Of a stretch of 47,716 nucleotides of DNA, positions 10,701 to 16,680 are shown piece after piece. Within the stretch, counting starts at the first letter, position 1. Every line of letters begins with the position of its first letter. A program made the position numbers and the translations under genes. Below the pieces are notes generated by a model that made no database searches, had not been told where the DNA came from, and saw nothing but the letters and a program-made list of their open reading frames with translations. This DNA comes from Niabella sp. (GTDB taxonomy: Bacteria; Bacteroidota; Bacteroidia; Chitinophagales; Chitinophagaceae), in the NCBI GenBank assembly GCA_027493055.1, contig JAPUDO010000105.1, positions 1 to 47,716 of the forward strand. The letters are read 5' to 3'.

Positions 10701-10961
10701 CCAATCCCCGTTAAGCGACAAAAACCTCCCGCTTTGCTCCCGGCTTTTGGAAAGCGCATCGGCAACATTTGCAAAAGAATACGCAGTAGCCCTTGACTGA
10801 TCCCTGTTAATACCACTTACCAGGGGATCTTCATAGGGTTCAGTATTATATACTTCAGGTGCGTTAGGAACAGCTGCAGGTGTTTTATCTACCAGCTGCG
10901 CCAGTGCACATACATTGCCTGTAATAAATAATAATGCAATAATTATAATTCTCATCATCAT
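7716..10961 (-). CDS. secreted GH2 family hydrolase, LacZ-like (beta-galactosidase type)
   Basis: The 1081-residue protein has a signal peptide ([20 protein letters not shown]) and the full LacZ-like architecture: sugar-binding domain ([21 protein letters not shown]), immunoglobulin-like domain, TIM barrel with acid/base E499 in SLGNEAGSG and nucleophile E594 in [14 protein letters not shown], then the C-terminal beta-sandwich (small chain) domain ([16 protein letters not shown]). The two glutamates are 95 residues apart, against about 76 in E. coli LacZ; the extra residues lie in the loop around [17 protein letters not shown] and may reshape the active site. Being exported and next to GH106, it likely trims a plant oligosaccharide rather than lactose. 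GH2 also includes beta-glucuronidases and arabinosidases, so the substrate is open. Its ATG overlaps the stop of the enolase-superfamily gene by 4 bp. Confidence 0.93.
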
Positions 10962-12031
10962 ATCTCTGTTAAATATTCGTCTTCAAATGAAAAGCCCCAT
11001 CCGGACCTGTTGTGAGGAACTGCAAAACCATTTTCTATGGCAAGGGGATGATCTATAAGCGGATCAATCCAATCGAACGACTCTGCACCTGCCCCATTGG
11101 AAACCGTGCAGAGCAAAGGCACATCATAATCTTTATAATAGTGCGGGAGCACAGGAATGTTATGTGCCAGCGCCAGGGCAGCACTATTTCTCCATGCTTC
11201 TACTCCGCCCAACCTCAATATATCAGGCTGCCAGATATCAATCGCATTCAGCTTTACCAGCTCTCTTAAAGGAAGGGTTGAATACTCACGCTCTCCCATG
11301 GCCAATGAAATACCTGCCTGGTTTTTCAACAACTGGTACCCCTGGAAATCAGTATGATCGATGGGTTCTTCAAACCATTGAATATGCAGGCTGCGTGCTG
11401 CGCGTGCCAATTGCAAAGCATTGGGAACTGTCATGCCCTGGTTAGCATCCATCATGATACCAATACTATTCCCTACGGCTTCCCTTACTTTGGCTAACCG
11501 TTCCAGATCCTCTTTCCAATCGGGCTTACCTACTTTTATTTTTACCGCGCTAAAGCCACGCTTTTTGTAACTGCTCACTTCGTCTATCAGCTCATCCGTA
11601 GTATAAGACAACCAGCCACCGCTGCCATAAACAGGCACTTTAAAATGATTGGCCCCTAAAACCTTCCATACAGGTTGTTGTAAAGTTTTTGCCCAGGCAT
11701 CCCACATAGCAATATTTACAGCAGCCTGCGCCCACCTGTTAACTCCTTCATTGCCGAAATATTCATTTGCCGTATCTATTTTTTTATAAACCGATACGGT
11801 ATCGCTGGCGTTCTCCCCGATAGCCATTGTTGCAACCTCCTTCAGCGCACCGGCAATAGCATGCGGGCTGTATTGAAAACTCAAAAGATAAGCTTCACCT
11901 GTAATACCGCTTTGCAGATGCAACCTTAATACAATAAAAGATATTTCCGTAAGTGTATGGGTAGCATCTGCAATGGGCTTATTTAATGCTGCTTTAGCTG
12001 TATATACCGAAAAATTATTAATCCGTTCCAT
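10958..12031 (-). CDS. mandelate racemase/muconate lactonizing family (enolase superfamily) enzyme, putative sugar-acid dehydratase or epimerase
   Basis: The 357-residue cytoplasmic protein has the enolase-superfamily order: lid domain (about 1-120), then a barrel with the KxK base in AVKIKVGK, metal ligands in MMDANQG, WFEEP and AMGEREYS, an Asp in [10 protein letters not shown] and a His in LPHYYKDYD, and a Glu in [10 protein letters not shown] KxK motif on one face plus a His-Asp dyad on the other is the mandelate-racemase subgroup pattern, used by acid-sugar dehydratases and epimerases. The gene abuts the BASS transporter gene (no gap) and overlaps GH2 by 4 bp, so it is in the RuBisCO-like/DUF1537 operon. 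This context suggests dehydration or epimerisation of a sugar acid. The substrate cannot be named from sequence. Confidence 0.9.
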
Positions 12032-13333
12032 TTAATCTTCTTTTTGCTTATCCTTATTTTCAACGGGCCTGCGCCTCCAGTAATTGGCCAATATACTTCC
12101 GCTGATATTCATCCAGGGACTAAATACTGCAGCCGCAAGGCCTACGGTTCCCAGTTTACCCATAGCGCCTGCAAGGCCGCTTGCCATGCCACCGTTTTGC
12201 AAGCCTACTTCAAAAGCTACTGTACGGCTTGAGTTTTTATCAAGCCCAAACAAACGGCTGAACCAATAGCCAAAAAAATAACCTGCTGCATTGTGTATTA
12301 CAGAAGCGATAAATAATAAAAAGCCCACTTTCAACAGGTTATCACGGCCGGCAGCCGTTGTAACCGTTGTAAAATAAATAATACCAAACATTGATATGAA
12401 AGGCATGAACTTATCAACATTTGGATATGCCCTATACAACCGGTTATATAAAACGCCCGCCACTACTGCTCCTGCCAAAAAACCGGATAGCTCCAGAGAT
12501 TGTAAAGCGGCATGAGAAGCATTGTTCATTTCAAAATATCCGTATCCCCAAATTAAAACCACTAAAGCATATACAGCACAAGCCACAGCCACAATATGTA
12601 TCTTCTTTCTTTTTCCGGCTGAAGCATGTTTTAAATAATCATGTAACAATGCGGCTCCAATGGGTACAATAACAATTTTAATAATTTCAATCATCATATC
12701 CACGAACTTCACTTCTATTAACGTACCTGCAAAAGTTTTCATTAACAGCGGTGTTAAAAAAGGAGCAGCCAATGTGGCCATTGCCGTTACAATTACCGAT
12801 AAAACAAGGTTAGCCCTTGCAAGATACACCATAACATTAGAAGCCAGCCCGCTGCTGCAACTGCCAATAAGAATTATACCTGCGGCTATTTCCGGTTCAA
12901 AATGAAACATGCGGGTAAGCAGCACACCCATTAAAGGCATGATAGAGAAATGACAAAGTAATCCCACTATTACGCCCTTTCCGGTAGATCCCAGTCCGCT
13001 AAAATCTTTTAGGCTCATGTGAGTACCCATGCCAAACATTACCAGCTGGATAATCACCAGTATCACCGTTTTATCGCGCAGGTTCACATCGCCCCAGCTC
13101 ATAAAAGCCTGCGGGTATAACATACCGGCTACTACTGCAGCAATGATCCAGGCCGTGTACTGATATCCTTTAAGCGATGTAACAGCGCCCAGCCCCAAAG
13201 CCAGGGTAACCGATGTAAGCACAGCGAAAGATTTACCCAGCTCTGCCTGCCGTGTTAACAATGAAATGACAAGCAGTATAGCTGCTATACCACAAACCCA
13301 TAAACTAAACCTATAGACTTTTTGCATGGACAC
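12032..13333 (-). CDS. bile acid:sodium symporter (BASS) family transporter
   Basis: The 433-residue inner-membrane protein has about ten or more hydrophobic segments and the BASS signatures MFGMGTHMSLKDF, IGSCSSGLASNVMVYLA and FEVGLQNGGMASGLAG, which form the Na+ and substrate site in the family. Two additional N-terminal hydrophobic segments (about residues 8-60) precede the usual core, making it longer than typical (about 300-330). BASS members carry organic anions such as bile acids, pyruvate or pantoate. In this operon, between an enolase-superfamily enzyme and a racemase-fold protein, it probably imports the carboxylate handled by the RLP/DUF1537 enzymes (inference). It follows the racemase-fold gene by 9 bp and abuts the enolase gene. 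Confidence 0.9.
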   Translation of the reverse strand: MSMQKVYRFSLWVCGIAAILLVISLLTRQAELGKSFAVLTSVTLALGLGAVTSLKGYQYTAWIIAAVVAGMLYPQAFMSWGDVNLRDKTVILVIIQLVMFGMGTHMSLKDFSGLGSTGKGVIVGLLCHFSIMPLMGVLLTRMFHFEPEIAAGIILIGSCSSGLASNVMVYLARANLVLSVIVTAMATLAAPFLTPLLMKTFAGTLIEVKFVDMMIEIIKIVIVPIGAALLHDYLKHASAGKRKKIHIVAVACAVYALVVLIWGYGYFEMNNASHAALQSLELSGFLAGAVVAGVLYNRLYRAYPNVDKFMPFISMFGIIYFTTVTTAAGRDNLLKVGFLLFIASVIHNAAGYFFGYWFSRLFGLDKNSSRTVAFEVGLQNGGMASGLAGAMGKLGTVGLAAAVFSPWMNISGSILANYWRRRPVENKDKQKED

Positions 13334-15433: not shown

Positions 15434-15435
15434 AT

Positions 15436-16680
15436 TTATTTCTTTCCGAATTTTTCAACGCTCTTGCGAAATTCCGGGTACTGCATAGCTGCTTCTTCCA
15501 GCGAAAGGCCTTCCACAGCAGCTTCCCAGGCCTGTTGTAAAGCCACAACACCAGCGCCTGCTCCCATTGGATGGGCCATAATGCCACCACCGGCCATATA
15601 TAACAGATCCTGTGTTTGTGTACGGCGCCAGGTTTCAAATGCCTGTCCGCCCCATTGGCCAGACGAAACAACGGGCAATATATTTTTATGCTCAAACATG
15701 GGCGTGAGACAGGCTTCGATAGAAGCAACTACGCTATCATCAGTTTCCCAAAACTTATTTTGAATACCATTTACATGCAGCTGATCCACACCTGCCAGTC
15801 GCCATATTTTCTGGTAAGCCCTGAAATCTATACCCAACAAAGGGTGCCTGGTAAGCATTCCCCATCCGTTGCGATGTGCATGTATAGCTAACCGGCGCTG
15901 ATCGCAAATCTTCTTCACGGCGCTCAATCCCACACTATTAATACTTACCATAGCACAGGTGCCACCATGCTGCAAGATCGTTTCATATCTTGACAGCATT
16001 TCATCTGCCTCGCCGCTAAGGTTAAAAGCATACATTGCTTTCTTACCTGTTCTATCCGCATGATCATTGATCACTTTCATAACAGCAGCTACCCTGTCTT
16101 CAAAAACTGAGTTAGCAGAAGAAGATAACAATTCATCATCTTTAATAAAATCTATACCCGCTTCAACTAATGTTTTTACTGTTGCTGCCGTGTCTTCCAC
16201 CGTAAGGCCAACCGAAGGCTTAATGATGGTTCCTATAAGTGGTCTTTGCAGAACACATGCCAGCTTCCTGCATCCCTCAATTCCAAATTCCGGACCTTTA
16301 AAATGACTGCCGAAAGAATCGGGAAGTTCAATGTCCAACAGCTTCAAACCGGTAAACTGTGTAATCTCATATAAATTACCCTGTAAAGTAGAGATCATCA
16401 CCAGGAGGTTATAACCAAAGTTTTCTATACTCCATGATACTTTAACCATAGCCCGATGGTATTTACCTGTACTGCTAACAGCGCCCGGTATTGCCGGCTG
16501 ATCCACTGTTTCAAGATACCTTACATCTTCAACACGTGCAGCAAAGCGTTGCTTCAGTTCTTCAGTTTCGCCAGGCACTGCCACAAATGTTCCCGAGGAC
16601 TGCTCTCCCGCCAGTACAGCAGCAGCCTTCTCCGGATCGTAGGGTGTTTCGATATAGTATGTAGCAAGTATTCTTTCCAT
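15436..16680 (-). CDS. RuBisCO-like protein (type IV-like large subunit homologue)
   Basis: I start at ATG 16680 (MERILATYYIETPYDP); the longer frame would need a TTG at 16698. It is a full-length RuBisCO large-subunit homologue. Compared with spinach, the loops corresponding to Lys175 (GTIIKPSVGL), carbamylated Lys201 with Asp203 and Glu204 (IDFIKDDELL), His294 (AIHAHRNGW), His327 and Lys334 (LHVNGIQNKFW), Ser379 (VVSSGQWGG) and the phosphate loop (GGGIMAHPMGAGAG) are kept. The Lys177 position is Ser, so true CO2 fixation is unlikely. RLPs enolise or decarboxylate phosphorylated keto-sugars; OiaX and OiaT of apionate catabolism pair with a DUF1537 kinase, as here (2-bp gap). Probable role: cleaves or decarboxylates the phosphorylated acid from the adjacent kinase. 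Confidence 0.93.
   Translation of the reverse strand: MERILATYYIETPYDPEKAAAVLAGEQSSGTFVAVPGETEELKQRFAARVEDVRYLETVDQPAIPGAVSSTGKYHRAMVKVSWSIENFGYNLLVMISTLQGNLYEITQFTGLKLLDIELPDSFGSHFKGPEFGIEGCRKLACVLQRPLIGTIIKPSVGLTVEDTAATVKTLVEAGIDFIKDDELLSSSANSVFEDRVAAVMKVINDHADRTGKKAMYAFNLSGEADEMLSRYETILQHGGTCAMVSINSVGLSAVKKICDQRRLAIHAHRNGWGMLTRHPLLGIDFRAYQKIWRLAGVDQLHVNGIQNKFWETDDSVVASIEACLTPMFEHKNILPVVSSGQWGGQAFETWRRTQTQDLLYMAGGGIMAHPMGAGAGVVALQQAWEAAVEGLSLEEAAMQYPEFRKSVEKFGKK

Follow-up and report, generated by a model that had tools for sequence, protein, structure and literature searches.

A conserved four-gene module with a RuBisCO-like protein beside an aceric acid hydrolase gene in Niabella sp. and its probable role in L-aceric acid catabolism

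Introduction

Rhamnogalacturonan II (RG-II) is among the most complex of the plant glycans, and the enzymes which depolymerise it are known; glycoside hydrolase (GH) families GH106, GH2, GH78, GH127 and GH141 form a set associated with its degradation. The described systems closest to the genes reported here belong to D-apionate catabolism, in which OiaK is a 3-oxo-isoapionate kinase and OiaX a 3-oxo-isoapionate-4-phosphate decarboxylase, and we take OiaT to be the name of the transcarboxylase/hydrolase acting on the same phosphate. That 3-oxo-isoapionate-4-phosphate transcarboxylase/hydrolase activity is named in the available part of PMC6302742. Here we describe a module of four genes, encoding a RuBisCO-like protein (RLP), a DUF1537 acid-sugar kinase, a racemase-fold protein and a BASS-family transporter, from contig JAPUDO010000105.1 of Niabella sp. 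(assembly GCA_027493055.1, positions 1 to 47,716, the whole stretch of 47,716 nucleotides being referred to as the window). The module stands next to a gene for a GH127 aceric acid hydrolase, and we propose, with a probability of roughly 0.6, that it catabolises L-aceric acid (3-C-carboxy-5-deoxy-L-xylose) from side chain B of RG-II by the route set out below.

Aceric acid is CHO-CHOH-C(OH)(COOH)-CHOH-CH3, with its carboxyl group on the tertiary carbinol C3. BT1003 of Bacteroides thetaiotaomicron is its GH127 hydrolase (PMC5698469), and the available part of that paper also indicates that less closely related GH127 proteins may act on other substrates. No description of intracellular aceric acid catabolism was found in the open-licence literature, including the available parts of PMC12168206, PMC12282258, PMC5698469, PMC7939467 and PMC6302742, and as far as this literature goes the module is a system of the RLP and DUF1537 kind with a proposed substrate which has not been described before.

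Results

The four-gene module and its conservation

In the window genome (labelled G000) all genes of the run which holds the module lie on the minus strand, from 26958 down to 4335, in the order GH141 (with a rhaM-like C-terminal domain), Gfo/Idh/MocA oxidoreductase, SSF symporter, GH78-like, GH127, RLP, DUF1537 kinase, racemase-fold protein, BASS carrier, a mandelate racemase (MR)/enolase-superfamily protein, GH2 and GH106. The RLP (15436..16680) matched both Pfam RuBisCO domains, at 214 bits (RuBisCO_large) and 38 bits against gathering scores of 30.1 and 20.7. Its start was placed at the ATG at 16680 (MERI...), which is kept in the alignment of relatives, and the open reading frame (ORF) could open at a TTG at 16698. 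It is followed by the kinase gene (14114..15433; SBD_N 174 bits, NBD_C 99 bits), the gene for the racemase-fold protein with one conserved active-site Cys (13343..14035; PF01177, 86.8 bits) and the transporter gene (12032..13333; PF01758, 112.7 bits), for which the closest NCBIfam model was PanS at 207 bits, below the cut-off of 400. The gaps are 2 bp between RLP and kinase, 78 bp between kinase and racemase fold, 9 bp between racemase fold and BASS and 0 bp between BASS and MR; the GH2 and MR genes overlap by 4 bp and GH106 lies 6 bp beyond GH2. An earlier note, made from the letters of the window alone, had listed five consecutive genes on one strand, from RLP to MR, with these families and gaps and with continuation into GH2 and GH106, all of which was confirmed.

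Conservation was assessed in a phylum sample of 296 genomes and in a scan of named genomes with an alignment of seven RLPs, which kept the best 80 of 552 relatives. These 80 loci (L044-L123) are by title mainly Bacteroidota, with Balneolota, Verrucomicrobiota and Planctomycetota in addition, and include loci from metagenome-assembled genomes titled Williamsia (L085) and Akkermansia (L121). Neighbours were counted by tblastn within 10 kb; at least 20 kb of sequence was present in 61 of the 80 loci and the others end early. Earlier ORF-based counts (racemase fold 72, BASS 72 and GH127 41 of 80) had missed genes, chiefly in GC-rich loci.

In the phylum sample, RLP orthologues of 71-76% identity were found in six other genomes, the next matches having at most 31% identity, and the RLP-kinase-racemase-BASS block was present in the same order in all six. 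Four of these six recur among the 80 loci (G080 as L084, G021 as L086, G286 as L112 and G150 as L120). The racemase-fold gene was present in exactly the same seven of the 296 genomes as the RLP. Across the 80 loci the kinase was found in 77, the racemase fold in 76 and BASS in 76, with all four core genes present in 75 and in the same order and strand in 71. Five loci did not show the full core within 10 kb: L051, L059 and L076, which end near the RLP, L056, which is without the kinase, and L054, which is without three core genes at this distance and whose genome carries the racemase-fold gene about 155 kb away, on a contig of the same length. GH127 was the commonest other neighbour (43 loci, directly upstream in 26), followed by the GH78-like gene (17), SSF (16), GH106 (14), Gfo (13), GH2 (12), GH141 (11) and MR (3), and the MR gene was found in none of the six phylum genomes with the RLP block.

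The real unit is therefore one of four genes, with GH127 as its commonest companion, and for four of the genes in the earlier note their joint conservation in other genomes excludes a chance arrangement. The expectation that all five would co-occur elsewhere thus held for four of them and failed for the enolase-superfamily gene, which is an occasional passenger rather than a pathway member. The upstream Gfo/Idh/MocA enzyme, put forward in the same note as a possible maker of the substrate, goes with a GH141/SSF/GH78 cassette, and both MR and Gfo were rejected as core steps on conservation.

Association with aceric acid hydrolase

The GH127 gene (16759..18771, minus strand) encodes a protein which scored 1115 bits on NF049879, the NCBIfam equivalog model for aceric acid hydrolase, over the cut-off of 950, and which matched 5mqo, presumably BT1003, over its length at 778 bits. 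Six truncated copies (L059, L075, L079, L089, L090 and L097) were left out of the GH127 alignment, in which E357, C359, C434 and C435 were invariant in 36 rows; we take this ExC...CC arrangement to be the GH127 metal/nucleophile pattern. The aceric cut-off was passed by 30 of these 36 full-length proteins (the window protein and 35 of the 41 ORFs near a module). The window protein is of the same subfamily as BT1003 and differs in that it sits beside an RLP module. By eye, signal peptides were seen on GH127, GH106 and GH2 and not on the RLP, kinase or racemase-fold protein, a pattern consistent with release on the outer side of the inner membrane, uptake through BASS and cytosolic catabolism.

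A GH127 above the aceric cut-off was found in 16 of the 296 genomes, and all seven RLP genomes were among these 16, with RLP and hydrolase on one contig within 52 kb in each of the seven. The Fisher p for this overlap was 3e-10, or 9e-9 with genera counted once. The 39 named-locus genomes without a near GH127 (taken from the ORF-based count, with 41 near, and not from the tblastn recount) were searched genome-wide; 31 held a protein above the cut-off, five more scored 868-906 bits, one scored 469 bits and two gave none. The module is accordingly accompanied by the hydrolase in 77 of 80 cases, 41 with the gene near and 36 of the 39 others at 868 bits or more. Of the 14 control genomes, two (Bacteroides ihuae and Thermotoga maritima) gave a match to the hydrolase model, above the cut-off in one case, and in neither was there a match to the OiaX model. 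A sugar acid had been proposed earlier and left unassigned; the class still fits, but the sugar can probably be named, through the adjacent aceric-type GH127 which tracks the RLP across genomes.

The RuBisCO-like protein

On the OiaX model (NF042437) the RLP scored 524 bits, under the cut-off of 700, where two annotated OiaX proteins scored 780 and 786; the type III RuBisCO model gave 256 bits. The careful tree, which held no MtnW or OiaT reference, contained 47 rows and used 31 of the 78 RLPs from L044-L123 which gave an ORF, eight distant rows being left out (a quick tree had used 39 RLPs of these loci). In this tree 33 module RLPs fell on one side of a branch with support of 100/96, the five annotated OiaX proteins grouped at 100/100, and the two groups were joined at 88/75.

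The equivalents of RuBisCO residues E60, T65, N123, K175, K201, D203, E204, H292, H294, R295, H327, K334, S379, G381, G403 and G404 were kept in all 41 module RLPs, the changes from RuBisCO being W66F and K177S. We take the numbers to be spinach RuBisCO labels, covering the catalytic lysine/metal site and the substrate residues. OiaX differs from the module at four of these positions, the five annotated proteins all having D, G, Q and C/G in place of E60, N123, H327 and S379. At these four sites nine further RLPs from the wider group have the same residues as the module RLPs. One of the nine is a non-OiaX RLP on a Roseibium plasmid (L130, 1574-10591), which lies inside an apionate-type operon and may be an OiaT. 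No OiaT-named record was seen among the matches listed (60 of 365 and 60 of 176 records) or among the NCBIfam matches.

The racemase-fold protein and the kinase

The module protein shares with the Asp/Glu/hydantoin racemase superfamily its fold and the first catalytic Cys, Cys87, which was present in 73 of 73 rows. It differs in the second, as the second-Cys motif of the racemases is replaced by LAQASM, with no Cys, in every one of the 73 rows. The AlphaFold2 model (predicted local distance difference test score 95.9) has a racemase fold and, among the first 50 matches listed, aligned with Asp, hydantoin and Glu racemases at template modelling (TM) scores of 0.62-0.76 and with arylmalonate decarboxylase at 0.54-0.58. 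A single base acting on one face is better suited to a 1,2-proton shift than to racemisation, and the protein is proposed as the most likely aldose-ketose isomerase of the route below, working with one base. The DUF1537 kinase scored 396 bits on the OiaK model NF042436, under its cut-off of 700, and is proposed to be the C1 kinase of the aceric ketose.

A xylose-isomerase-like TIM barrel is encoded elsewhere in the window (34967-35950, minus strand). It was considered as a cytosolic aceric isomerase and rejected, as eight of the 15 genomes which carry it are without the RLP and the N-termini look exported by eye. At E 1e-40 it was found in 15 of the 296 genomes, all among the 16 hydrolase genomes, and being confined to these it goes with RG-II use as a marker. 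It is possible that isomerisation takes place in the periplasm before import.

Proposed route for L-aceric acid

In the route we propose, secreted GH127 would free aceric acid from side chain B of RG-II and the BASS carrier would bring it over the inner membrane. The racemase-fold protein would then isomerise it to the ketose HOCH2-CO-C(OH)(COOH)-CHOH-CH3. This ketose would be homologous to 3-oxo-isoapionate, from which it would differ by CHOH-CH3 in place of CH2OH; it would be a beta-keto acid whose carboxyl is on a tertiary carbinol and whose ketone has a free CH2OH beside it. Given the shared head group, a beta-keto tertiary-carbinol carboxylate, the adjacent DUF1537 kinase and RLP would act as OiaK and OiaX/OiaT do. 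The kinase would phosphorylate the C1 CH2OH, and the RLP would decarboxylate the product to a RuBisCO-type enediolate, that of 5-deoxy-L-xylulose 1-phosphate. The substrate is well supported by context; it, each reaction and the order of the steps are all inferred.

Two fates of the enediolate can be envisaged. In the preferred, OiaT-like one, CO2 would be re-added to the other carbon and hydrolysis would give 3-phosphoglycerate and lactate, the latter as L-lactate because of the S configuration at C4. In the OiaX-like alternative, protonation only would give 5-deoxy-L-xylulose 1-phosphate, from which rhamnulose-1-phosphate aldolase could produce dihydroxyacetone phosphate and acetaldehyde; the stereochemistry of this phosphate fits that aldolase. 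Two points favour the OiaT-like fate, namely that the module RLPs retain the RuBisCO residues which OiaX has altered and that the module includes no aldolase, and likeness to OiaT would explain both. Within 10 kb of the module none of the 80 loci had a homologue of the RhaD-ADH-type fusion of G000 and one had a homologue of the AraD-type aldolase of G000, and no aldolase was seen among the 14 scanned of 15 unlabelled gene clusters present in at least six loci, four of which were without a family. Aldolases of PF00596 were found in all seven RLP genomes of the phylum sample, and in G000 the RhaD-ADH gene is accompanied by genes for an FGGY kinase and a xylose-isomerase-like protein, presumably as a rhamnose operon. 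That the RLP moves the carboxyl from C3 to C2 of the phosphorylated aceric ketose, with no aldolase and no loss of CO2, and that the one-Cys racemase-fold protein is a new isomerase class, is together a tentative proposal which we hold to be possible, if doubtful.

Several observations weigh against the aceric acid route. The isomerase is its weakest step, and we know of no isomerase with a racemase fold. Forcing the window RLP together with OiaX costs 23 log units, at an approximately unbiased (AU) test p of 0.065, so that this grouping just escapes rejection. GH127 is to be expected in any RG-II degrader, so that context at the level of genomes does not by itself single out aceric acid. Neither Fisher p for the association of RLP and hydrolase fully corrects for common descent. 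Three of the 80 genomes (L049, L047 and L055, on contigs of less than 9 kb) gave no strong hydrolase match, and nine of the 16 hydrolase genomes are without the module; release of aceric acid without its use seems common. Of 34 module genomes examined from the 80, all but one (Pelagicoccus, L110) carry RhaD-ADH elsewhere (33 of 34), which does not separate the two fates of the enediolate because rhamnose use needs RhaD-ADH anyway. The FMN-type lactate-dehydrogenase-like protein of the window had no homologue near the module in the 80 loci. What singles out aceric acid is the adjacency of GH127 together with the chemistry.

Alternative explanations

A variant of D-apiose/D-apionate catabolism, with the RLP acting as OiaX or OiaT on 3-oxo-isoapionate 4-phosphate, would also suit an RG-II degrader, as RG-II contains apiose too. 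OiaX and OiaK are the nearest named families of the module RLP and kinase, OiaX is the neighbouring group in the RLP tree, and kinase and RLP adjoin here as they do in the OiaX operons L128 and L129. Both proteins nevertheless fall below the curated cut-offs, with identities of 39-40% to the kinases of L128 and L129 and 48-50% to the five OiaX proteins, and the partners differ, those of the module being the racemase fold, BASS and GH127. The annotated OiaX loci instead carry a ribose-type ABC carrier and a Gfo/Idh/MocA protein (L128, L129, L178 and L180, four of five), or another ABC carrier with aldo/keto reductases (L179), with a phosphogluconate-dehydrogenase-like protein in L128 and L129 and triosephosphate isomerase (TPI) and RpiB in L128; no racemase-fold or BASS gene is listed in the five, whose gene tables are incomplete. 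In the 80 loci the L128 partners (6-phosphogluconate-dehydrogenase-like protein, RpiB, TPI and DUF2291) had no homologue, its ABC binding protein had one in a single locus and its ABC ATPase in two, and there was no homologue of the oxidoisomerase candidate of the OiaX operon. G000 moreover has a separate apiose-type operon (contig C22, L172), with a SusC/SusD-like pair, a protein with an L-fucose-isomerase C-terminal domain, a split transketolase, a periplasmic sugar-binding protein with ABC genes and an FGGY kinase, a make-up which we take to be the D-apiose isomerase/kinase/transketolase route. A few of the 80 loci have homologues of its genes no more than 10 kb from the module (isomerase in 4, transketolase halves in 5 and 7, FGGY kinase in 7). 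Apiose-type genes elsewhere in G000 and beside the module in other loci imply that apiose is handled otherwise there, and an apionate reading leaves the tie to GH127 and the conserved racemase-fold gene unexplained. The apiose route was rejected as first choice on the apiose-type operon and the differing neighbours, and we consider it quite unlikely; chemistry related to the apionate routes, and probably distinct from them, had also been anticipated in the earlier note.

The substrate might instead be another RG-II or pectin acid, such as 3-deoxy-D-lyxo-heptulosaric acid (Dha), 3-deoxy-D-manno-octulosonic acid (Kdo) or a uronic or aldonic acid, with GH127 merely a frequent neighbour. Judged by gene content, the genomes with the module degrade RG-II and have many further hydrolases close to it, and the MR-type dehydratase of the window suggests aldonic acids. 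We think this unlikely, since GH127 is near the module in 43 of the 80 loci against 17 for the next window hydrolase, and a separate cluster in the window could suit Dha. Dha and Kdo are, in addition, alpha-keto acids which are normally cut by aldolases, and to our knowledge aceric acid alone among the RG-II sugars has the tertiary-carbinol carboxyl which an RLP decarboxylase needs. A five-gene route, with oxidation by Gfo/Idh and dehydration by MR leading to a phosphorylated keto-acid, draws on the MR gene overlapping or abutting its neighbours, on its presence near the module in L049, L050 and L108 and on distant relatives of MR, with about 30% identity, which L116, L121 and L123 have upstream of the RLP; with MR in three and Gfo in 13 of the 80 loci, and another Gfo-type family in nine, it is highly improbable. 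The RLP shares a superfamily with the MtnW-type methionine salvage enolase, an identity which is next to negligible and was rejected on score; on TIGR03332 the RLP reached 147 bits against a cut-off of 513.6, which by score places it outside MtnW, as the reading of the earlier note requires, and its context is one of carbohydrate genes.

If the aceric acid route is correct, the module supplies the missing intracellular path for a rare branched plant cell wall sugar, a further job for catabolic RLPs and possibly a new isomerase fold, as well as a genomic marker which parts genomes that only release aceric acid (nine of the 16 hydrolase genomes) from those that consume it. Should the RLP relay CO2 within its substrate, the module would provide the first route for aceric acid inside cells, and RLPs with nearly all the RuBisCO catalytic residues and an internal CO2 donor would bear on the origin of RuBisCO.

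Other genes of the window and related loci

The remaining genes of the run are all on the minus strand. The accessory MR/enolase-superfamily protein (10958..12031) has MR_MLE domains, is sugar-acid dehydratase-like and scored 222 bits on TalGalacDh (cut-off 500). In an RG-II context stand a beta-galactosidase-like GH2 (7716..10961, domain match), copies of which, 66-68% identical, occur near the module in G033 and G150, a GH106 alpha-L-rhamnosidase (4335..7709; PF17132, 567 bits) and a GH78-like alpha-rhamnosidase (19027..21405, domain match). The cassette around the latter has the SSF-family symporter (21415..22989) and the non-core Gfo/Idh/MocA oxidoreductase (23190..24329), both assigned by domain match, and GH141 fused to an L-rhamnose-mutarotase-like domain (24376..26958; GH141_M 200 bits, rhaM 39 bits at 761-857). 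A WYL-domain protein (27926-28936, plus strand), divergent from this directon, is a possible regulator.

A second run (30065-47244, minus strand) encodes a BNR sialidase-family protein, two dihydrodipicolinate synthase (DHDPS)-type proteins, an iron-containing alcohol dehydrogenase (Fe-ADH), a PdxA protein (D-threonate-4-phosphate-dehydrogenase-like), a D-threonate-type DUF1537 kinase, SSF, esterase-like and xylose-isomerase-like proteins, an FMN-dependent dehydrogenase, pta and ackA. Part of it, the DHDPS/Fe-ADH/PdxA/DUF1537 cluster mentioned above, could act on Dha, a further unusual acid of RG-II, by a route in which an aldolase would give pyruvate and a C4 semialdehyde acid, followed by reduction, 4-phosphorylation and oxidative decarboxylation. 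The C-terminal domain of its DUF1537 protein (39174-40304, minus strand) matched weakly at 23.8 bits, below the gathering score. A TonB-dependent receptor gene (44717-45697, minus strand) encodes 326 aa matching the barrel profile at 163-435 of 436 and is a fragment or a broken gene.

Among the 80 loci a DUF5703 protein (e.g. L066, 16451-18778) was near the module in 16, and recurrent families without a Pfam match at E 1e-10 (clusters 10, 14 and 25) were found in 13, nine and six. In the apiose-type locus L172 the product of the gene at 8085-9920 resembles, as judged by eye, the BT_1020-like propeller protein seen in L056. Related genes were also seen on plasmids. In Rufibacter tibetensis (L124, 12001-16692) all four module genes lie on a plasmid classed as mobilizable, beside a pectinesterase. 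On a Croceibacterium plasmid (L125, 6175-10528) an RLP of 53% identity and a DUF1537 kinase come directly after a gene with a beta-L-arabinofuranosidase domain (87 bits, below the aceric cut-off), with no racemase-fold or BASS gene among the genes listed; this is a parallel case, perhaps for another substrate. In a Gram-positive pectin cluster on a plasmid of Streptomyces sp. NBC_00184 (L182, 3952-11242), a distant RLP lies in the order alcohol dehydrogenase-RLP-DUF1537-GH78-GH2 beside two GH28 genes.

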